Assembly: GCF_009827635.1 (NCBI RefSeq)
Contig: NZ_WTYW01000001.1
Span: 1,010,001 to 1,074,000, forward strand
DNA length: 64,000 nucleotides
Direction of reading: 5' to 3'
Origin: Parapontixanthobacter aurantiacus
GTDB taxonomy: Bacteria; Pseudomonadota; Alphaproteobacteria; Sphingomonadales; Sphingomonadaceae
The notes beneath the pieces are model-generated. The model searched no databases. It saw only the letters and a program-made list of their open reading frames with translations, and was not told the origin of the DNA. Below, piece by piece: positions 10,596 to 18,537 of this stretch. Both the position numbers and the translations under genes were made by a program. The first letter of the stretch is position 1. The number at the start of each line of letters is the position of its first letter.

Positions 10596-11882
10596 TTGGC
10601 CGATAACGAGGCGAAGCTGCAGATTGACGATGCTACGCAGGATTTCCCGATCCTTCAGGGTAGCTGCGGACCGGATGTCATCGATATTCGCAAGCTGTAT
10701 GGTCAGACCGGACGCTTCACCTTCGATCCCGGCTATAAATCTACCGCGAGCTGCGAAAGCGCCCTGACCTTCATCGATGGTCAGGAAGGCGTCCTTCTCC
10801 ACCGCGGCTATCCCATCGGTCAGCTGGCGGAACATTCCAGTTTCATGGAAGTCTCCTACCTTCTCCTGAACGGAGAACTGCCGAAAGCGGACGAACTCGA
10901 TGAGTTCACTTATACCATCACGCGCCATACGATGCTGCACGATCAGCTTCGCCAGTTCTATCAAGGTTTCCGCCGCGATGCGCACCCGATGGCGATCATG
11001 TGCGGGGTGGTCGGCGCGCTTTCGGCTTTCTACCACGACAGCACGGATATCTCCGATCCGGAGCACCGGAAGATTTCGAGCCATCGATTGCTGGCCAAGA
11101 TGCCGACAATTGCGGCCTGGGCATACAAATATTCGATCGGTCAGCCATTTCTGCAGCCGGACAACTCACTGAGTTACACCGGCAACTTCCTGCGAATGAC
11201 CTTCGGTGTTCCGGCAGAGGAATACGAAGTCATTCCCGAAGTCGAGCGAGCAATGGACCGCATCTTCATTCTTCATGCGGACCACGAACAGAATGCTTCC
11301 ACATCGACAGTGCGGCTTGCCGGTTCGTCGGGGGCCAACCCGTTCGCCTGCATCGCCGCCGGCATCGCATGTCTTTGGGGTCCGGCGCATGGCGGCGCGA
11401 ACGAAGCCGCGTTGAACATGCTCCGCGAGATCGGAACGCCGGACAAGATCCCCCACTATATCGAGCGTGCGAAGGACAAGAACGATCCGTTCCGCCTGAT
11501 GGGCTTCGGACACCGTGTCTACAAGAACTACGATCCGCGCGCGACCGTCATGCAGAAGACGGTGCGCGAAGTTTTCGACGCACTGAAGGTGAAGGATCCG
11601 GTCTTCGAAACGGCGTTGCAGCTCGAAGAGATCGCTCTCAACGATGATTATTTCCGCGAGAAGAAGCTGTTCCCGAACGTCGATTTCTATTCGGGTATCA
11701 TCCTGTCAGCCATCGGCTTCCCGACGACGATGTTCACCGCTCTCTTCGCGCTTGCGCGGACGGTCGGCTGGGTCGCGCAATGGAACGAGATGATTTCCGA
11801 CCCAGGCCAGGTTATCGGTCGTCCGCGGCAGCTTTATACCGGTCCGACGCAACGCGACTACGTACCGGTCGACAAGCGCTGA
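10596..11882 (+). CDS. gltA: Citrate synthase
   Basis: Condenses oxaloacetate and acetyl-CoA to citrate, the entry step of the TCA cycle. It has 428 residues, the type II bacterial length. Active-site blocks are visible: [51 protein letters not shown] and NVDFYSGI. The best start is TTG at 10596, because an AAGGAG ribosome-binding site lies at 10583-10588 with 7-base spacing and the peptide then opens with a typical family N-terminus (M-ADNEAKLQ). No in-frame ATG lies nearby. A strong hairpin follows the stop. Confidence 0.97.
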
Positions 11883-11919: not shown

Positions 11920-13347
11920 CTAATTCGTGCCGTGAGAGTTTTTGGGGATGGATAGCGTGAAGCGTGCCCCCTGCCCCGGCGCGCTTTCGACCGACAGATC
12001 GCCACCCATCGCTCGGGCTATCTTGCGCGAAATGTAAAGCCCGAGACCGGTTCCGCCGTCGCCAGAACGACCGAGGCGCTCGAACTTGTCGAAAACCTTC
12101 GCTTGCTGGCTTTCGCTCAATCCTGCTCCCTGATCAGCGACCGTCAGCATCGCCTCGTCCTCAGTCTCGTCGAGACACAGCCAAATCTGCGAACTTTCCG
12201 GAGAATAACGGACGGCGTTACCGAGCAGGTTGAGAAGGACCTGAAGAACGCGGCGGAATTCGCCTGTCGCTGTCAGACTTTCCCCTTTTTGCGGCATGAT
12301 CAGAGAAATTCCTCTCTCCGAAGCCTTGCCGCGCAGGATACTCGCAGCACGCCGTGCAACCTCGGCCAAATCGATAATGTCGGGAGCCGTACTGAACTCT
12401 GCATCTTCCACGGCCTCCAGATCGCCCACATCGTCGATAAGATTGAGCAGATGCTGCCCGGCCGCAGCGATGTCCGAAGCGTAGTCGCTGTAGGCGTCGT
12501 CGATCGGTCCCGCGAGCTTTGTGCGGATCGTTTCGGCATTCGCGATAATACGTGCGATTGGCTGCCGAAGAACGGGGGAAAGGTCTCGCCCGATCAAGTC
12601 AAATGTCGCCGAGGCAACTTGCTTGTCTGACTGCTCCGGTGCGATGAATGCGCTGTCAGGGATCAGGTAAAGCATGAAACCAGTTGGCTGTCCTGCGTCC
12701 GGTTTGAGAGGCTGAAAACTGATCTTCCAATGCCGCTTCGAACCCGGCAACGTGCAACGCGCACCGTTCAAGACGCGCCAATGACTTTCGTCTATGTCGT
12801 CATGATCATTGAACACCACGAGATGACGCCAAGATTGTCCAATCGCCGCCTTCATTTTCTTGGCGGCGCTGATCGTGTCGGGCGCAGAGGCATCGACCGA
12901 GACGATCTCCTCATTGGGACCGAGCCGGAGTGCCAATTCCGAAAGCAGTTTCTCTGCGTCCTCGCTTCGGTTGGCCATGGACGACGCCGAAGCTAGATCT
13001 TCGCGTTGCTTGTTCCAGCTGAAAATCGCGATCCGCGTGCCTGCATATTCGGGCGCCCCGCGTTCCGCTCCACTAGTTTGACTTCCGCCGATCGCGAAAT
13101 GAGGGGTCAGTTCGATCCATGCGCGGATCTCGTGCTCTCCGTCGAAGGCGCGGATCTGTCTCGCGATGCGGAATCCATACTCCTTCGTCTTTCGGACAAG
13201 CTCCGCCAATTGGGGAACTGCGACAGGGCCCGGTATCGCGCCGCCGCAATCGGCTTGCAATTCGGCCAAGGCGTCGCCTGCTTCTATCAGCCAGCCATTC
13301 GCATCGCACCGTCCTTCGATCAGGGGTTTATCGAGGGTGTCGATCAT
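11920..13347 (-). CDS. Histidine-kinase-like protein lacking the phospho-acceptor His
   Basis: A soluble 475-residue sensor-kinase-like protein. The start chosen (MIDTLDKPL) is one base after the upstream stop (TGATATG), so the two genes are coupled. Residues 1-225 hold a PAS-like sensory region with no clear cofactor motif. The dimerisation helix around 250-310 has the H-box register S-P-V-L-R-Q-P-I (257-264): Pro258 sits where the usual SHELRTPL has its His. The ATPase domain looks intact: N-box with Asn373 and Asn377, G1 DQGAGL (405-410), F-box FDKFER and G2 GGTGLGL (431-437). By inference it may bind ATP but not autophosphorylate at the normal site. It has no adjacent response regulator and no transmembrane helix. 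Confidence 0.8.
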   Translation of the reverse strand: MIDTLDKPLIEGRCDANGWLIEAGDALAELQADCGGAIPGPVAVPQLAELVRKTKEYGFRIARQIRAFDGEHEIRAWIELTPHFAIGGSQTSGAERGAPEYAGTRIAIFSWNKQREDLASASSMANRSEDAEKLLSELALRLGPNEEIVSVDASAPDTISAAKKMKAAIGQSWRHLVVFNDHDDIDESHWRVLNGARCTLPGSKRHWKISFQPLKPDAGQPTGFMLYLIPDSAFIAPEQSDKQVASATFDLIGRDLSPVLRQPIARIIANAETIRTKLAGPIDDAYSDYASDIAAAGQHLLNLIDDVGDLEAVEDAEFSTAPDIIDLAEVARRAASILRGKASERGISLIMPQKGESLTATGEFRRVLQVLLNLLGNAVRYSPESSQIWLCLDETEDEAMLTVADQGAGLSESQQAKVFDKFERLGRSGDGGTGLGLYISRKIARAMGGDLSVESAPGQGARFTLSIPKNSHGTN

Positions 13348-13348
13348 A

Positions 13349-14299
13349 TCAAGAACCGTGCCTTGCTTCGGCGAAATACAAGGTTCGCGCCTCAACCTGA
13401 TCGATCTCACCGCTCCACGCCGCTTCCGCGTGTTCGTCGGACAGATAGGCCAGATCTGCTAATGCTGCCGTCCGTTTCTTGCCGACTGCATGAAGCGCCA
13501 GCGAAAGGCGGCTGGCCTGTGACAAGTCGAGAAGTCGGACGATCTCCTCGCGCTCCTGCTTCAACGCATCGCTCAGGAGCGAGACGAATAGAGACAGACC
13601 AGACTTTTCGAGCGGAAAAATTTCATCTCCTGTGTCCGTGACGATTGTTGCCAACCGCTCGAGCAAGGCGGTCCGGCTGTTGCGCTCGTCATAGGCGTTC
13701 CGGATTTGCGCTTCACTCGCAGTCATCGCCGCGCCGTTCTGCGGGCTGCCGCTATTGCGCCAGTCACGCAGAACCTCGTGAAGGATGTCCGCCGGGAGTT
13801 GCGACAGCGGAAGGTGCATGCGTTCGAGCGATTGCAAGAACTGCCCCTGACTTGCCACGAAACGCATTGCGAGCGAGGCAGTGCTTTCCTTATCGTCTGA
13901 AAGACAATCGCGGATCACCGGCGGGAGAATTGGGTCTGCGCCCCGTGTCTTTTGCAAACGAAGGAGAAGCGTATATTCGAGGGACAGTGCGTGACAGTGC
14001 CGAAGGAGCGCTTCGTTGTTCTCGAGATATCGACTGATCCGCCCAACAGATGGGGCGGTTGAGTTGCTCGAATTATCGGTTTCCCGTTCCGCTTCGCTCA
14101 ATTGCCGGGCAAGACTGCGGACAAGACCTCGTGTCCGAGCAATGATAGCGTCACTGAAATATCGCGAGGGCGGCGCGGCAAACAATAGGGCAAGGGTCGC
14201 ATCGGTTTGCCGTGCGAACCGTTCCTCCTGCGCCAGGCGAGCGAGGAAATCATCGGATGGTCCGACCGTTTCGTCTTCTGTCAGAACCTCGTCGCTCAT
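13349..14299 (-). CDS. Conserved helical protein, possibly DUF2336-like
   Basis: A 316-residue soluble protein, almost entirely helical by inspection, with no signal peptide or membrane segment and no catalytic motif that I recognise. The C-terminal part (about 215-290: LLERLATIV, LSLFVSLLSDALKQEREEIVRLL, LSLALHAVGKKRTAALADLA) has the rhythm of alphaproteobacterial DUF2336 proteins, but this is pattern recognition only. It sits directly upstream of the His-less kinase gene with a one-base gap, so the two products are probably made together and may interact. Confidence 0.6.
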   Translation of the reverse strand: MSDEVLTEDETVGPSDDFLARLAQEERFARQTDATLALLFAAPPSRYFSDAIIARTRGLVRSLARQLSEAERETDNSSNSTAPSVGRISRYLENNEALLRHCHALSLEYTLLLRLQKTRGADPILPPVIRDCLSDDKESTASLAMRFVASQGQFLQSLERMHLPLSQLPADILHEVLRDWRNSGSPQNGAAMTASEAQIRNAYDERNSRTALLERLATIVTDTGDEIFPLEKSGLSLFVSLLSDALKQEREEIVRLLDLSQASRLSLALHAVGKKRTAALADLAYLSDEHAEAAWSGEIDQVEARTLYFAEARHGS

Positions 14300-14322
14300 G
14301 CTTCTTCGCTAGCATGGCGTAG

Positions 14323-15501
14323 TTAATCAGTCGTTATTCTCGTTTCGCGATCGTGCCACAAGAGGACAGCGATAACGTAAACACATAGCACCATAACTGT
14401 ATGAAGCAGCTGATCGACTAAGGCTGCCATGCTTAGAAAAAGAAACAGGGTCGCCCTATCCTTCAGCATCTCCAGCCATCGAGTGTCTTTGCTTTGCGCG
14501 ATATAAAGCGTTCCGAACAGCACGACCCCAGCGAAAATCCTAACTAATGAAAAACCGGTCTCGGGCTGTAGCGAGACAATGGCGATTGCCAGAAGCTCGA
14601 AGCCGAGCAACATCGTGTTGATCCTGCTGCGTGTAGCGCCAAAATTGCGAAGTTTGTCGATGGTCGAAGCGGCGTAGATCATCGCGGTGCCGACCGCGCA
14701 CAGAAAAAGAGCAGCCGCAACGAGTTCGAAATACAGAGCCAGCAGGATCGTCGCGCATAGGACGAGAGATATCAGGCTCACCTGCCGGACGATCGAACCT
14801 TCGGGCAGACCCTTGCTAGCTACGCTCAGCGCGACACGTTGCGCCACGCCTTTCAAGGGTTGCGAAAAACGGACCGGCGTTACCACGGTTGCAAATTCGC
14901 GTTCCTCGAAATTGCCGCGTTGCTCGGACGTCGCGAACGGCAACAGGAAATAATCCTCCTGTTCCTTCACGATATCGGACAAGATGGGTGTTCCGTCCTG
15001 TAGGGCCAACCGCAGCAACGTCGAAGTTGCGTCGATGTCTTCGGGAAAGTCATGCAGGCTTTGAGCAAGGTGCCCCCGGATCATTGCCAAGCCGAACCAT
15101 CTGCGCTTCGCGTCGATCCGCTCATGCTCGTCGCCCTTTTCGTCCGCGGGAACGGCCATGACGAAAGGATCGGCAAATGCGAGTCCTTCGGCAAGTTGAG
15201 ATGAAATGGCTAACCCATCTGCAACCAGCATCAATTCGTCATCCGATCCGATGGAATTCGCGACTTTCTCGACGCTATCGCAGAACTCTACTTGGAGACC
15301 CAAACTTGAGCAGAGATTGGTAAGCCGATCATTTTGTGGCGATTGGTCGTCGACAAGAACCAGAACTTTCGAACAGCCGAATTGGTGCGCCAACTTGATC
15401 TGACGATGAATGATCGACGAACCCGCCACTGGAAGAAAGGCAGCGACTTGCTCTCGCCCTTCGGCGTTTCTGCTTAAGGCGCTTAGCAGCGCTATCCGCA
15501 C
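14323..15501 (-). CDS. NTP-transferase-like domain fused to a membrane domain (possible DIPPS-type pseudoenzyme)
   Basis: A 392-residue protein with a GTG start behind a GGGAGAGG ribosome-binding site. Residues 1-190 resemble a MobA/sugar-nucleotidyltransferase fold (LPVAGSSIIHRQIKLA, then SKVLVLVDD), but the usual GxGTR loop is replaced by SALSRNAEGRE. Residues 210-385 hold about six hydrophobic helices. Their arrangement (short basic entry, two helices, then AASTIDKLRNFGATRSRINTM) parallels CDP-alcohol phosphotransferases, yet the catalytic D-x2-D-G-x2-A-R motif is missing. Such fusions make CDP-inositol and di-inositol-phosphate in other organisms. My reading is a catalytically decayed relative; the function is unknown. 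Confidence 0.5.
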   Translation of the reverse strand: MRIALLSALSRNAEGREQVAAFLPVAGSSIIHRQIKLAHQFGCSKVLVLVDDQSPQNDRLTNLCSSLGLQVEFCDSVEKVANSIGSDDELMLVADGLAISSQLAEGLAFADPFVMAVPADEKGDEHERIDAKRRWFGLAMIRGHLAQSLHDFPEDIDATSTLLRLALQDGTPILSDIVKEQEDYFLLPFATSEQRGNFEEREFATVVTPVRFSQPLKGVAQRVALSVASKGLPEGSIVRQVSLISLVLCATILLALYFELVAAALFLCAVGTAMIYAASTIDKLRNFGATRSRINTMLLGFELLAIAIVSLQPETGFSLVRIFAGVVLFGTLYIAQSKDTRWLEMLKDRATLFLFLSMAALVDQLLHTVMVLCVYVIAVLLWHDRETRITTD

Positions 15502-15583
15502 CCGTCCTCTCCCGTCGCCAGTCGTTCACCGGTAAACGGCGACAATGCGGAAATAAAGAGGGGCTAGCTGACGGTAAGCGCGT

Positions 15584-15895
15584 TCAGCGTGCTTCCATAT
15601 TTGCAAAAGACGCGAGAACGGCATCCATTTTTCGCAACACGGTCGGCTCGCCGGGCGCGGAAGCGAGGGTCTCGTCAGCCAGCGCGACGAGCTGCTCTGC
15701 ATGGAAGCTCGCTGCGATCGCCCGCAACCGTAAGGCCGCCATGTTCCAGTTCGCGTCGCAACGCGATCTTTTCAACAGATCGAGCTGCCGGGCAATGCTG
15801 TCGAGAAAGGCAGTCGCAAGTTCTCCCTGCAGCGCGGCGTTGTCGCCCGCCGCGGCAGAGATCGTCGCCTCAAGATTGCCGTTGTCGTAAGCCAT
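15584..15895 (-). CDS. Hpt-like four-helix protein without the phospho-acceptor His
   Basis: A 103-residue soluble helical protein. Residues 30-75 can be laid over an Hpt domain: the usual A-H-x-L-K-G-x-A-x-x-L-G-A-x-x-L corresponds to A54-L55-R56-L57-R58-A59-I60-A61-A62-S63-F64-H65-A66-E67-Q68-L69. The spacing and hydrophobic positions match, but the phospho-accepting His is Leu55 and the neighbouring Lys/Gly are Arg58/Ala59. It is transcribed away from the TipN-like gene; the two share a 70-bp intergenic region with a CtrA-type box. The Hpt assignment is structural inference and may be wrong. Confidence 0.45.
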   Translation of the reverse strand: MAYDNGNLEATISAAAGDNAALQGELATAFLDSIARQLDLLKRSRCDANWNMAALRLRAIAASFHAEQLVALADETLASAPGEPTVLRKMDAVLASFANMEAR

Positions 15896-15921
15896 CGGCG
15901 CACAATCTACCGCAATTAAGG

Positions 15922-15936
15922 TTAAAAAGTTTTTAA
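15922..15936. promoter_or_regulatory. CtrA-type box TTAA-N7-TTAA
   Basis: A perfect TTAA-AAAGTTT-TTAA, the full consensus of the alphaproteobacterial cell-cycle regulator CtrA, lies in the divergent intergenic region between the Hpt-like gene (starts 15895) and the TipN-like gene (starts 15967). It is 31 bp before the latter's ATG. A further TTAA lies at 15916-15919. Only the motif is seen; binding is inferred from the family's known specificity. The match is A/T-rich in a GC-rich genome, which makes chance less likely but not excluded. Confidence 0.6.
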
Positions 15937-15966
15937 GCCCTATTCTTACGTGATAGCTTGCTTCTC

Positions 15967-18537
15967 ATGGTCACGAATTCCCACATCAGAGCCGTCGAAG
16001 GCGATCACCAGGTCGTCGATGCAGCCCCGCAGGATCCGCATGAAAGCACACTCATCCTGGACGAGCATCAGATTGCGCGCGACGATGGCTACTACGATGC
16101 CGATGGACTGATCGCTGCGGAAGAAGACGGCAGCTTTCACGACGAAAACGAGACCGGCGGACTATGGTTGCCGATCGTCGCAGCGAGCGCGGCGATCGCA
16201 TGGACCGGCTACTTCTTCTGGTCCAAAAGTTCTCTATGGGAGAGTGGTCTTTCTCCTTCTCGCGTCAGCGATCTTCTGGTTGGTTGGGCGGTTCCGCTGG
16301 TTCTGATCGCCGTCGCCTATATTCTGTATACGCGGTCAAGCACTCGCGAGATCAAGCGATACGGCGATGCGGCAAACTCTTTGAGGCAGGCTTCGCTGGA
16401 ACTCGAACACCGGCTAAATACCGTAAACCGCGAGCTGAGCCTTGCGCGCGAGTTCCTGACGATACAATCGCGCGAGCTCGAATATGTCGGCCGCAGTGCA
16501 AGCGAGCGGCTGTCCGACCACGCGACCGTCCTTCAGTCGCTGATTGGCCGCAATAACGACGAGGTCGAGAAGATTGCGACGGTAAGCGAGGTCGCTGCGG
16601 GGAACATGGAGAAAATTCGCGACGATCTCCCTGTGATCGCCAATTCGGCGCGCGACGTCGCCAACCAGATCGCCGGCGCTGGCCGAGGTGCTCAGCGGCA
16701 GGTCGAAACACTCATTACCGGTTTCGAACGGCTCAATAAGTTCGGCTTGGCCAGCGAACGACAGGTCGATGCTTTGAAAGCGAAACTCGACGAAACCTAT
16801 ACCCACTTCACGGAAACATCGGAATATGTGAATGTCGCCGCCGCAAGCCGGTTCAAGGAACTGGGCAAGGCGATCGAATTGTTGCGGTCCGAACTCGAGG
16901 ACCACGAAATCGCGGCTCTCGGAAGCATTCGCCAGAGGGCGCACAAGCTGAACGATGAATTGAACGCCTTGCGGGACGAGTCCGTGGAGCGGGAAAGCGT
17001 TATGCTAACCGCGCTGATCGAGCGGATCGAGGAGTTGCGGTCCTCGGCGGATCGCGTGTCGGATCGCCTTGGCGAGGCGCAAAACGCAGCCCGTTCGGAT
17101 TGGGACGAGCACCTCGTGAAGATCGAGGACGATGTGTCCGGCCTTCAACACAATCTACGGCTGCACGCTTCGGACCTCGAAGACGACCTCAACAAACGGG
17201 GCGAACGACTGCTCGCGCTTGGCGAGGATGTAAGTCGCGACCTCGCCGCTCGCATCGAGGAACTGGATAACCGCCTGGAAGCGAAGCGCGGGGTATTCAC
17301 CGACTATTCCGAAAGGCTCGGGGCAGATCTCGATAGCATGGGCGCGCGTATCGACGAGCTTGCCTCGAAGATCGGCTCACTTTCAGAAGCCGGAGAAAAA
17401 ACGCGCGAGCAATTGAGAAACGACGTCGTTTCTCTTCGCGATCATGTCGAGGAAGGCAAGCGAATGCTCGACGCAACGCGCAGCGATATGGCGACGGCAA
17501 CCGACGACAGCGTCAGGCTTCTCGAACTGCTTCAGGCAAGCGTCACGCAAACGGAAAAAGTCCTGCCCGAAAGCATCGGAGCGAGCGAAACCAAGATTGC
17601 CGCCCTTTCCGAGGCGCTCGAACAGCTTGTCGACAAACTACGTGAAGCAGATGCTCATGGCACATCGCTCTCGACGAATATCAGCGCGAGCAGCGAGAAG
17701 AGCGTTGCCGCCATCGACTACCTCGATGGCTGGCGCTCTCGCCTCGAGGAGGGTGTTGATGCTCAACAGCTGCGGCTATCAAGTCTGAAGGACGGGTTGG
17801 AAGAAATTTCTGCCCTGCTGGACGATCAATCCAAACGTTCGACGGACGAACTTCGCGGCGTCATCGAGACTTCAAGACAAGCTGTCGACGAGGCGCTCGC
17901 ATCCTTTCGCGATCCCGATTCGAACAGGTATGAGGAAATTGCGCAACTCGTCGGAAGTGCAAGCGCGCGTGCGGTTGAAGATGCCGTGCGAACGAAGGCT
18001 GAGGAAACGGTCGAGGCCTTGGAACTATCGAGCGCGCGTGCGGCAAAGCACAGCGAGGAGACGGCCGACGTCCTGCGCAACGAGCTTGCACGCATAGAAG
18101 AGATGACAGCCCAACTCGAAACCCGGATCGATCATATTCGCGAACGTGCGAACGACCGACTCGATAGCGACTTCTCGCGCCGGGTTGCCGTCATCACGGA
18201 AAATCTCAATTCTTCCGCGATCGATATTTCGAAGGCCATGTCGGAGGATGTCAGCGAAACTGCCTGGGCATCCTATCTGAAAGGCGATCGCGGCATCTTC
18301 ACACGCCGTGCCGTTCGCCTGCTGGACAATACGCAGGCGAAGGAAATCGCGGCCCTATACGACAGCGACGCCGAGTTTCGCGAACATGTGAGCCGCTACA
18401 TCCATGATTTCGAGGAACTGCTTCGCTCCTTCCTCGCGACAGAAAACGGCAACGCGCTAAGCGTAACGGTTCTGGGATCGGATATGGGCAAGCTCTATGT
18501 CGCACTCGCACAGGCAATCGAGCGTCTGCGCAACTGA
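15967..18537 (+). CDS. TipN-like polarity protein: two N-terminal membrane helices and a long coiled coil
   Basis: An 856-residue membrane-anchored protein. The start ATG at 15967 was preferred over a TTG three codons upstream. Residues 1-65 are acidic and soluble; two helices follow at about 66-86 and 103-122, then more than 600 residues of heptad-rich, charged coiled coil. The end is a compact conserved-looking domain of about 120 residues (FTRRAVRLLD from residue 778, YIHDFEELLRSFLA, GSDMGKLYVALAQAIERL). Caulobacter TipN, which marks the new pole, has the same plan (two N-terminal transmembrane segments, large coiled coil, about 880 residues). The homology is inferred from architecture and the C-terminal block. 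The upstream CtrA-type box fits a cell-cycle role. Confidence 0.65.
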   Translation: MVTNSHIRAVEGDHQVVDAAPQDPHESTLILDEHQIARDDGYYDADGLIAAEEDGSFHDENETGGLWLPIVAASAAIAWTGYFFWSKSSLWESGLSPSRVSDLLVGWAVPLVLIAVAYILYTRSSTREIKRYGDAANSLRQASLELEHRLNTVNRELSLAREFLTIQSRELEYVGRSASERLSDHATVLQSLIGRNNDEVEKIATVSEVAAGNMEKIRDDLPVIANSARDVANQIAGAGRGAQRQVETLITGFERLNKFGLASERQVDALKAKLDETYTHFTETSEYVNVAAASRFKELGKAIELLRSELEDHEIAALGSIRQRAHKLNDELNALRDESVERESVMLTALIERIEELRSSADRVSDRLGEAQNAARSDWDEHLVKIEDDVSGLQHNLRLHASDLEDDLNKRGERLLALGEDVSRDLAARIEELDNRLEAKRGVFTDYSERLGADLDSMGARIDELASKIGSLSEAGEKTREQLRNDVVSLRDHVEEGKRMLDATRSDMATATDDSVRLLELLQASVTQTEKVLPESIGASETKIAALSEALEQLVDKLREADAHGTSLSTNISASSEKSVAAIDYLDGWRSRLEEGVDAQQLRLSSLKDGLEEISALLDDQSKRSTDELRGVIETSRQAVDEALASFRDPDSNRYEEIAQLVGSASARAVEDAVRTKAEETVEALELSSARAAKHSEETADVLRNELARIEEMTAQLETRIDHIRERANDRLDSDFSRRVAVITENLNSSAIDISKAMSEDVSETAWASYLKGDRGIFTRRAVRLLDNTQAKEIAALYDSDAEFREHVSRYIHDFEELLRSFLATENGNALSVTVLGSDMGKLYVALAQAIERLRN

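Follow-up and report, generated by a model that had tools for sequence, protein, structure and literature searches.

A candidate polarity locus of Parapontixanthobacter aurantiacus in which conserved phosphorelay-like proteins lack their catalytic residues

RetS acts on another kinase, and pseudo-kinases such as DivL have, to our knowledge, usually been described singly. DivL, a cell-fate pseudo-kinase of Caulobacter, is described as having no kinase or phosphatase activity, as binding an ATP analogue weakly and as sensing DivK~P (PMC4211667). The polarity protein TipN is given as 882 aa long (PMC13170164), and GPR is described as similar to TipN (PMC8546619). A list of developmental regulators in Caulobacter includes SpbR (PMC12700997). 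Here, a locus of Parapontixanthobacter aurantiacus is presented in which five genes encode a pseudo-histidine kinase, a helical protein, a degenerate membrane protein, a histidine phosphotransferase (Hpt)-like protein and a TipN-like protein. The window, the whole stretch of DNA that was analysed, is 64 kb long (G000:C1:1010001-1074000). The locus (11920-18537) takes up 6.6 kb of a genome of 2.9 Mb, and all five genes lie where a first-pass annotation of the window had placed them. It appears, with a probability of about one half, that this is a CtrA-linked cell-polarity module whose relay parts have been turned into non-phosphorylating adaptors or switches. In the open-access literature searched, no paper was found on a locus of this kind or on TipN together with Sphingomonadales, and the term DUF2336 was not found.

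The kinase possesses a HATPase_c domain (Pfam, 1.2e-27) and scores 23.5 bits against HisKA, which is below the Pfam cut-off of 26.9. Its H-box reads DLSPVLRQPI, with Pro in place of the His of the solved kinase HK853. Thus, the intact ATPase domain and the Pro in the H-box that had been described earlier are both present. Among 94 kinase orthologues, the acceptor residue is Pro in 87, Ala in two, and Asn, Val, Arg, Gln or His in one each. In active kinases the residue that follows the acceptor His is acidic, and a Thr/Asn position serves phosphatases. The first of these positions is Val in 74 of the 94 orthologues and the second is Gln in 78. The ATP site was checked at 11 positions of the N, G1, F and G2 boxes. 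Nine of them are kept in 93 or 94 of the orthologues, and the remaining two are kept in 92 and in 88, respectively. Without exception, the 94 kinases have one N-box Asn, the Asp and the first Gly of G1, three G2 glycines and an F-box Phe. Since the acceptor is changed and the ATP-site residues are conserved, the acceptor chemistry appears to be gone and the nucleotide site kept. On a midpoint-rooted tree with low support for some splits, six of the seven non-Pro kinases cluster outside the Pro clade, and one kinase with Ala lies within it.

An AlphaFold model of the kinase, built from 54 aligned sequences (mean pLDDT 85, pTM 0.50), has a DHp hairpin and a CA domain, preceded at the N-terminus by two domains of mixed alpha/beta structure that can be read as PAS-like. 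The DHp/CA part has the fold of an ordinary kinase, with TM scores (by target length) of 0.79 for RetS, 0.78 for ZraS and 0.73 for DivL. The likeness to the kinase region of RetS (0.78-0.79) is unspecific, as the ordinary kinase ZraS fits as well, and the window kinase has no known partner kinase. Like DivL, it is a HisKA/HATPase protein without an acceptor His. Unlike DivL, it has Pro and not Tyr at this site and lies within a cluster that holds a TipN-like gene, and its ATP motifs are complete, in contrast to the weak binding of an ATP analogue described for DivL (PMC4211667).

The genome of Parapontixanthobacter aurantiacus has 25 HATPase_c places, gyrase- and CheA-type ones among them. The H-box was read by position at 20 of the 24 places outside the window. 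One of these kinases is DivL-like (G000:C1 736-739 kb, L263:907-3360). It is PAS-rich, has the motif MSYEFRTPL with Tyr at the acceptor position and has a degenerate G2 box. The window kinase is therefore ruled out as the DivL of this organism. The comparison with DivL made in the first-pass annotation is apt in kind, but it does not extend to identity.

The Hpt-like protein has Leu55 at the position of the His, as had been claimed for it. The Pfam model Hpt (PF01627) does not match the window member; of 30 family members, 19 are matched at E <= 0.1, the best at 7.9e-12. When the family profile was compared with the PDB, the best histidine phosphotransferase was 2ooc (1.6e-11), which we take to be ShpA of Caulobacter. 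This is the nearest solved relative of the family. Unlike a ShpA-type phosphotransferase, however, most proteins of the window's family are without the His, and the gene adjoins a TipN-like gene. The site is Met in 42 of 103 family members, Leu in 23, His in 12, Gln in 11, Glu in six and a rarer residue in the rest. In the 91 His-less members, conservation is 0.89-1.0 at the sites that correspond to Arg56, Gly59, Ala61 and Ser63 and over a stretch R-x-R-C-D-x-N-W, so that the surroundings of the site are retained in sequence. This nearly invariant stretch is perhaps a new binding surface. An HxLKGAA-like motif is found in the Hpt relatives encoded next to TipN-like genes in the order outside the window's family (family and order labels are those assigned by the search tool).

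The TipN-like protein has one clear hydrophobic segment near its N-terminus (hydropathy 2.35), a second that falls slightly short of the threshold (1.52 vs 1.6), a long coiled coil and a conserved domain formed by its last ~125 residues. It has matches in 56 of 59 relatives. Its C-terminal columns are matched in 17 of 40 Caulobacteraceae genomes (E 4e-8 to 0.06; manual count). Twelve of these Caulobacteraceae regions were picked for having this C-terminal match. The match ends a frame of 821-1199 aa in all 12, and there are two hydrophobic segments in 10 of them and one in two. The C-terminal domains of the window family and of Caulobacteraceae were compared with hhalign and gave a probability of 97.5% (E 8.1e-12), against 0.1% for a coiled-coil control. 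Judged from its DivJ (970 bits, cut-off 1000), the genome G234 is close to Caulobacter vibrioides, and its protein has 885 aa. Because of this size (885 vs 882 aa) and the DivJ-type genomes, we infer that the Caulobacteraceae proteins with the shared C-terminal domain are TipN. The TipN-like label given earlier can thus be kept at the family level. The protein resembles TipN and GPR in its N-terminal hydrophobic stretches, the second of which is borderline, its long coiled coil and a C-terminal domain held in common with TipN-size Caulobacteraceae proteins. It differs from them in having new gene neighbours. A class-wide search for TipN-like proteins returned 77 of 142 genomes, a figure that includes coiled-coil-only matches and is not an orthologue count.

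The promoter shared by the pseudo-Hpt and TipN-like genes contains the sole perfect TTAA-N7-TTAA of the 64 kb, where 0.07 would be expected; such a box was present in seven of 100 shuffles. A perfect box was also found in 11 of 73 such promoters of relatives (0.1 expected, with shuffles that keep dinucleotides) and in 10 of 1600 random windows. The 40 of these 73 promoters with a called intergenic length of 60-80 bp were scored for the best box over eight positions. The score is 8 in five promoters, 7 in 28 and 6 in seven, and the position of the box is nearly constant. A score of at least 7/8 is therefore reached in 33 of the 40, versus 0.8 in shuffles that keep base composition only. Some boxes in relatives have a spacing of 8, as judged by eye. 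A sigma-70 scan of the cluster was uninformative (one site vs 2.4 expected). The perfect CtrA-type box that had been pointed out in the window is confirmed, and relatives have kept a CtrA-like box in the corresponding promoter. CtrA is predicted to bind it and would co-express the pseudo-Hpt and the TipN-like gene.

The clustering of the genes is conserved as well. In 11 of the 14 relatives first examined, the gene order is complete from gltA through to the TipN-like gene. The exceptions are G006, with no membrane protein detected, G032, with no Hpt detected, and G001, without the housekeeping flanks. A larger set was made up of the best 80 named loci out of at least 565 relatives, with Erythrobacter, Qipengyuania, Novosphingobium and others in it; close relatives are over-represented, and gene starts in relatives were taken as the most upstream ATG/GTG/TTG. 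With short contigs included, the membrane protein was found at 78 of these 80 loci, the helical protein at 76, the Hpt at 73, the kinase at 72 and gltA at 70. At 71 of the named loci, 7 kb or more of sequence precedes the TipN-like gene, and all four partners are present in 65 of these. The order of the window, gltA included, is kept among the genes detected in 66. Five of the 71 are without a detected Hpt only, and one is without all four partners. The first-pass annotation had proposed to look at whether the genes stay together in relatives, and they do so across genera. Median dN/dS, from pairs with dS 0.1-1.2 that are not independent of each other, is 0.25 for the pseudo-Hpt, 0.34 for the kinase, 0.45 for the helical protein, 0.46 for the TipN-like protein, 0.60 for the membrane protein and 0.13 for gltA. 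These sequence comparisons indicate purifying selection on the cluster genes.

Other states of the locus are found in sister lineages. Among 33 same-family TipN-like loci, some of them on short contigs, the kinase is present in 21, the helical protein in 18, the membrane protein in 27 and the Hpt in 20. At 18 other-family loci, again with some short contigs, the kinase, the helical protein and the membrane protein are each present in none and the Hpt in nine. In eight of these nine, a receiver protein adjoins the Hpt. Receivers that are 57-86% identical to the one in G056 occur in 16 loci overall (e.g., L099:9554-10102). The acceptor position, as read, is Asn in 13 of the 16 and Asp in three, and those three loci have no detected Hpt. 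A match to the receiver at E < 1e-50 is present in 20 of 24 genomes from other families; of the 35 same-family genomes, G007 alone has one. The genome of the window has no close match to it (best E 4.3e-5), and the receiver was dropped as a partner there. SpbR-family genes (NF052659; e.g., L094:2335-3345 and L097:5224-6192) are found near the TipN-like gene at 12 of the 18 loci from other families, and G007 also has one. In the sister families, the TipN-like gene lies between them and the Hpt. G007, a member of the same family as the window, retains an Hpt with His, a receiver with a broken frame and SpbR. Since the Asn receiver and the His-less Hpt and kinase belong to separate lineages, it seems that the links lost from the relay differ from one lineage to another.

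The helical protein was searched for DUF2336. The DUF2336 profile (PF10098) has no match at E <= 0.001 in the organism's own genome, the window copy included. Three of 19 helical-family members do match (best 7e-30). These are the most divergent rows, and they were placed in the family by an iterated profile and by their position between the kinase and the membrane protein. Because these three match and hold the same position, DUF2336 descent of the window protein is likely. The DUF2336-like label of the first-pass annotation therefore suits part of the family, but the window copy itself does not match. A model of the protein (pLDDT 87) has no match in the PDB at E <= 0.001, and the best VIA-align Z is 4.5 on 81 residues. 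The two SpbR-family proteins of sister families that were scanned are DUF2336 proteins (2.2e-70 and 2.9e-72). The SpbR model does not match the helical protein of the window; it matches two of the 19 helical-family members (best 7e-12). When divergent helical members were added, hhalign against SpbR gave 52.7% (E 1.4e-4), with controls at 0.2%. The similarity rises only with these divergent members and is not found in the window-like clade, so descent from an SpbR-type protein is a lead rather than a result. Like SpbR, the helical protein lies near a TipN-like gene. Unlike SpbR, it is not matched by the model, and its own-clade profile is without similarity.

The membrane protein belongs to a family that combines a nucleotidyltransferase with a CDP-alcohol phosphotransferase. 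CDP-OH_P_transf is matched by three of 27 members. PDB 4mnd, a bifunctional inositol-phosphate cytidylyltransferase/CDP-alcohol phosphotransferase, is similar to it in sequence over the membrane part (2.8e-11). Unlike an enzyme of the 4mnd type, 103 of 106 family members are without the DxxDGxxA core; those that have it are G003, G017 and G030, and the window copy is not among them. The full CDP-alcohol phosphotransferase motif (DxxDGxxAR; our own pattern) was found in none of the 106. A nucleotidyltransferase/membrane pseudoenzyme, as proposed earlier, agrees with these matches and with the loss of the core motif in the window.

The phosphate-passing residues are lost in proteins that are conserved, and this suggests switches or scaffolds rather than enzymes. 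One short divergent promoter would co-regulate the TipN-family membrane protein and the pseudo-Hpt, a former phosphotransfer protein, and the parts of the cluster would no longer move phosphate. The pseudo-Hpt could be a docking adaptor at the TipN-like protein for receiver or DHp surfaces. The pseudo-kinase may work as a conformational switch that depends on ATP and has a receiver or another kinase as its binding partner, as with DivL and RetS. It would report through the DUF2336-derived protein, and the degenerate membrane protein would act as an anchor. In outline, a phosphorelay would have become a scaffold at the pole. The scaffold or allosteric polarity module suggested by the first-pass annotation is favored by the co-conservation of the genes, the loss of His in a kinase and an Hpt that are nonetheless conserved, the TipN-like family and the conserved box. 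Its weak side is the His found in some homologues.

Several observations weigh against such a module. A His is present in one of 94 kinase orthologues (G024, in which the H-box is degraded) and in 12 of 103 Hpts, while the rest are without it. Nine of these 12 Hpts come from other families, and three (G005, G007 and G034) are in the window's family. The four-partner cluster occurs in only some members of a single family (for the kinase, 21 of 33 same-family TipN-like loci vs 0 of 18 from other families). The membrane protein is fast-evolving, with dN/dS up to 0.98. The window-like helical clade alone gives 0.1% with hhalign against SpbR, the same as controls. The Caulobacteraceae proteins were called TipN by size and DivJ and not by any named record. 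In addition, the association and function of the cluster proteins, with their interaction and polar localisation, are what we infer from sequence.

The main rival to the non-phosphorylating reading is a kinase that is still catalytic in trans. Within a heterodimer, its ATPase domain would phosphorylate the His of the other kinase, and the acceptor alone would be lost. The ATP-site residues are near-invariant in the 94 orthologues although the acceptor is Pro, and HisKA-type kinases with His are encoded elsewhere in the genome. However, the acidic post-acceptor residue and the phosphatase residue are gone too, the cluster has no partner kinase and its Hpt has no His. Such a kinase is considered unlikely.

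It is also improbable that the genes form a neighbourhood without joint function, with the TipN-like gene and the Hpt as one unit and the kinase, helical and membrane proteins as another, beside gltA by shared history. All four partners occur jointly across many genera (65 of 71 loci), and the His of the Hpt is mostly lost in the same family where the kinase cluster occurs. This has to be set against the other families, which have a TipN-like gene with an Hpt (9 of 18 loci) and never the kinase, helical or membrane protein (0 of 18), and against the housekeeping pairs gltX-gltA and rnJ-coaX, which hold their place as well. That the cluster consists of decaying phosphorelay remnants heading for loss is very hard to accept. 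Three of its proteins are without catalytic residues, evolution of the membrane protein is rapid (median dN/dS 0.60) and one or more genes are absent in several same-family genomes, as decay would predict. Yet dN/dS is below 1 in the pairs examined, Pro is nearly fixed (87 of 94) where random residues would be expected, the kinase retains its ATP site and the pseudo-Hpt has its nearly invariant stretch.

The history of the locus can be sketched tentatively. A whole phosphorelay at the pole may have been converted stepwise, and differently in sister lineages, to a phosphate-free signalling scaffold with a TipN-family landmark at its centre. One set of families would have lost the receiver Asp (13 of 16 loci) and the other the His of the Hpt and of an added kinase. 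An SpbR/DUF2336-type protein would have been recruited, and the ATP binding of the kinase would be left as the switch. We regard this scheme as possible rather than probable. Because sister lineages hold other states of the locus, the conversion from phosphorelay to scaffold and the role of the kept ATP site are directly addressable. The genes of several signalling proteins without catalytic residues lie together in a conserved locus, which also holds the gene for a probable polarity landmark and, in front of them, a CtrA-type box. The locus would be a new variant on the pseudo-kinase theme, unusual in the number of inactivated parts at one conserved, probably polarity-related place. A probable polarity locus is now open to study in Erythrobacter, Qipengyuania and Novosphingobium.

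The coordinates of the features are collected in Table 1. On the minus strand, the order of transcription is the Hpt-like gene, the membrane protein gene, the helical protein gene and the kinase gene, and the TipN-like gene is divergent from this set. The helical protein gene ends at 13349 and the ATG of the kinase is at 13345-13347, which gives the one-base gap that had been reported between the two.

Table 1. Features of the locus, in positions of the window
Feature	Position	Strand	Remarks
Pseudo-histidine kinase	11920..13347	-	475 aa from ATG 13347; 496 aa from GTG 13410
Kinase acceptor-site Pro codon	12574-12576	-	Pro279
Probably DUF2336-derived all-helical protein	13349..14299	-	316 aa; one base upstream of kinase ATG
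Degenerate nucleotidyltransferase + CDP-alcohol phosphotransferase membrane protein	14323..15501	-	392 aa; catalytic core lost
Pseudo-Hpt	15584..15895	-	103 aa; Leu55 at His site, codon 15731-15733
CtrA-type box TTAA-N7-TTAA	15922..15936	.	Within divergent pseudo-Hpt/TipN-like promoter
TipN-family membrane coiled-coil protein	15967..18537	+	About 856 aa; conserved C-terminal domain

The five genes are flanked by gltX-gltA on one side and by a small DUF1467 gene on the other. The genes beyond the latter can be read as those for RNase J (rnJ) and coaX. In Novosphingobium sp. 18050 (L228), the TipN-like gene stands with rnJ and coaX, and neither a partner nor gltA was detected alongside it. The citrate synthase gene gltA (10596-11882) is at the locus in 70 of the 71 named loci with enough upstream sequence, which is possibly synteny only. 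In Caulobacter, the defects of a tipN cpdR double mutant are described as corrected by loss of the citrate synthase CitA (PMC7083601). The adjoining gltA as a functional partner of the cluster is a lead only.

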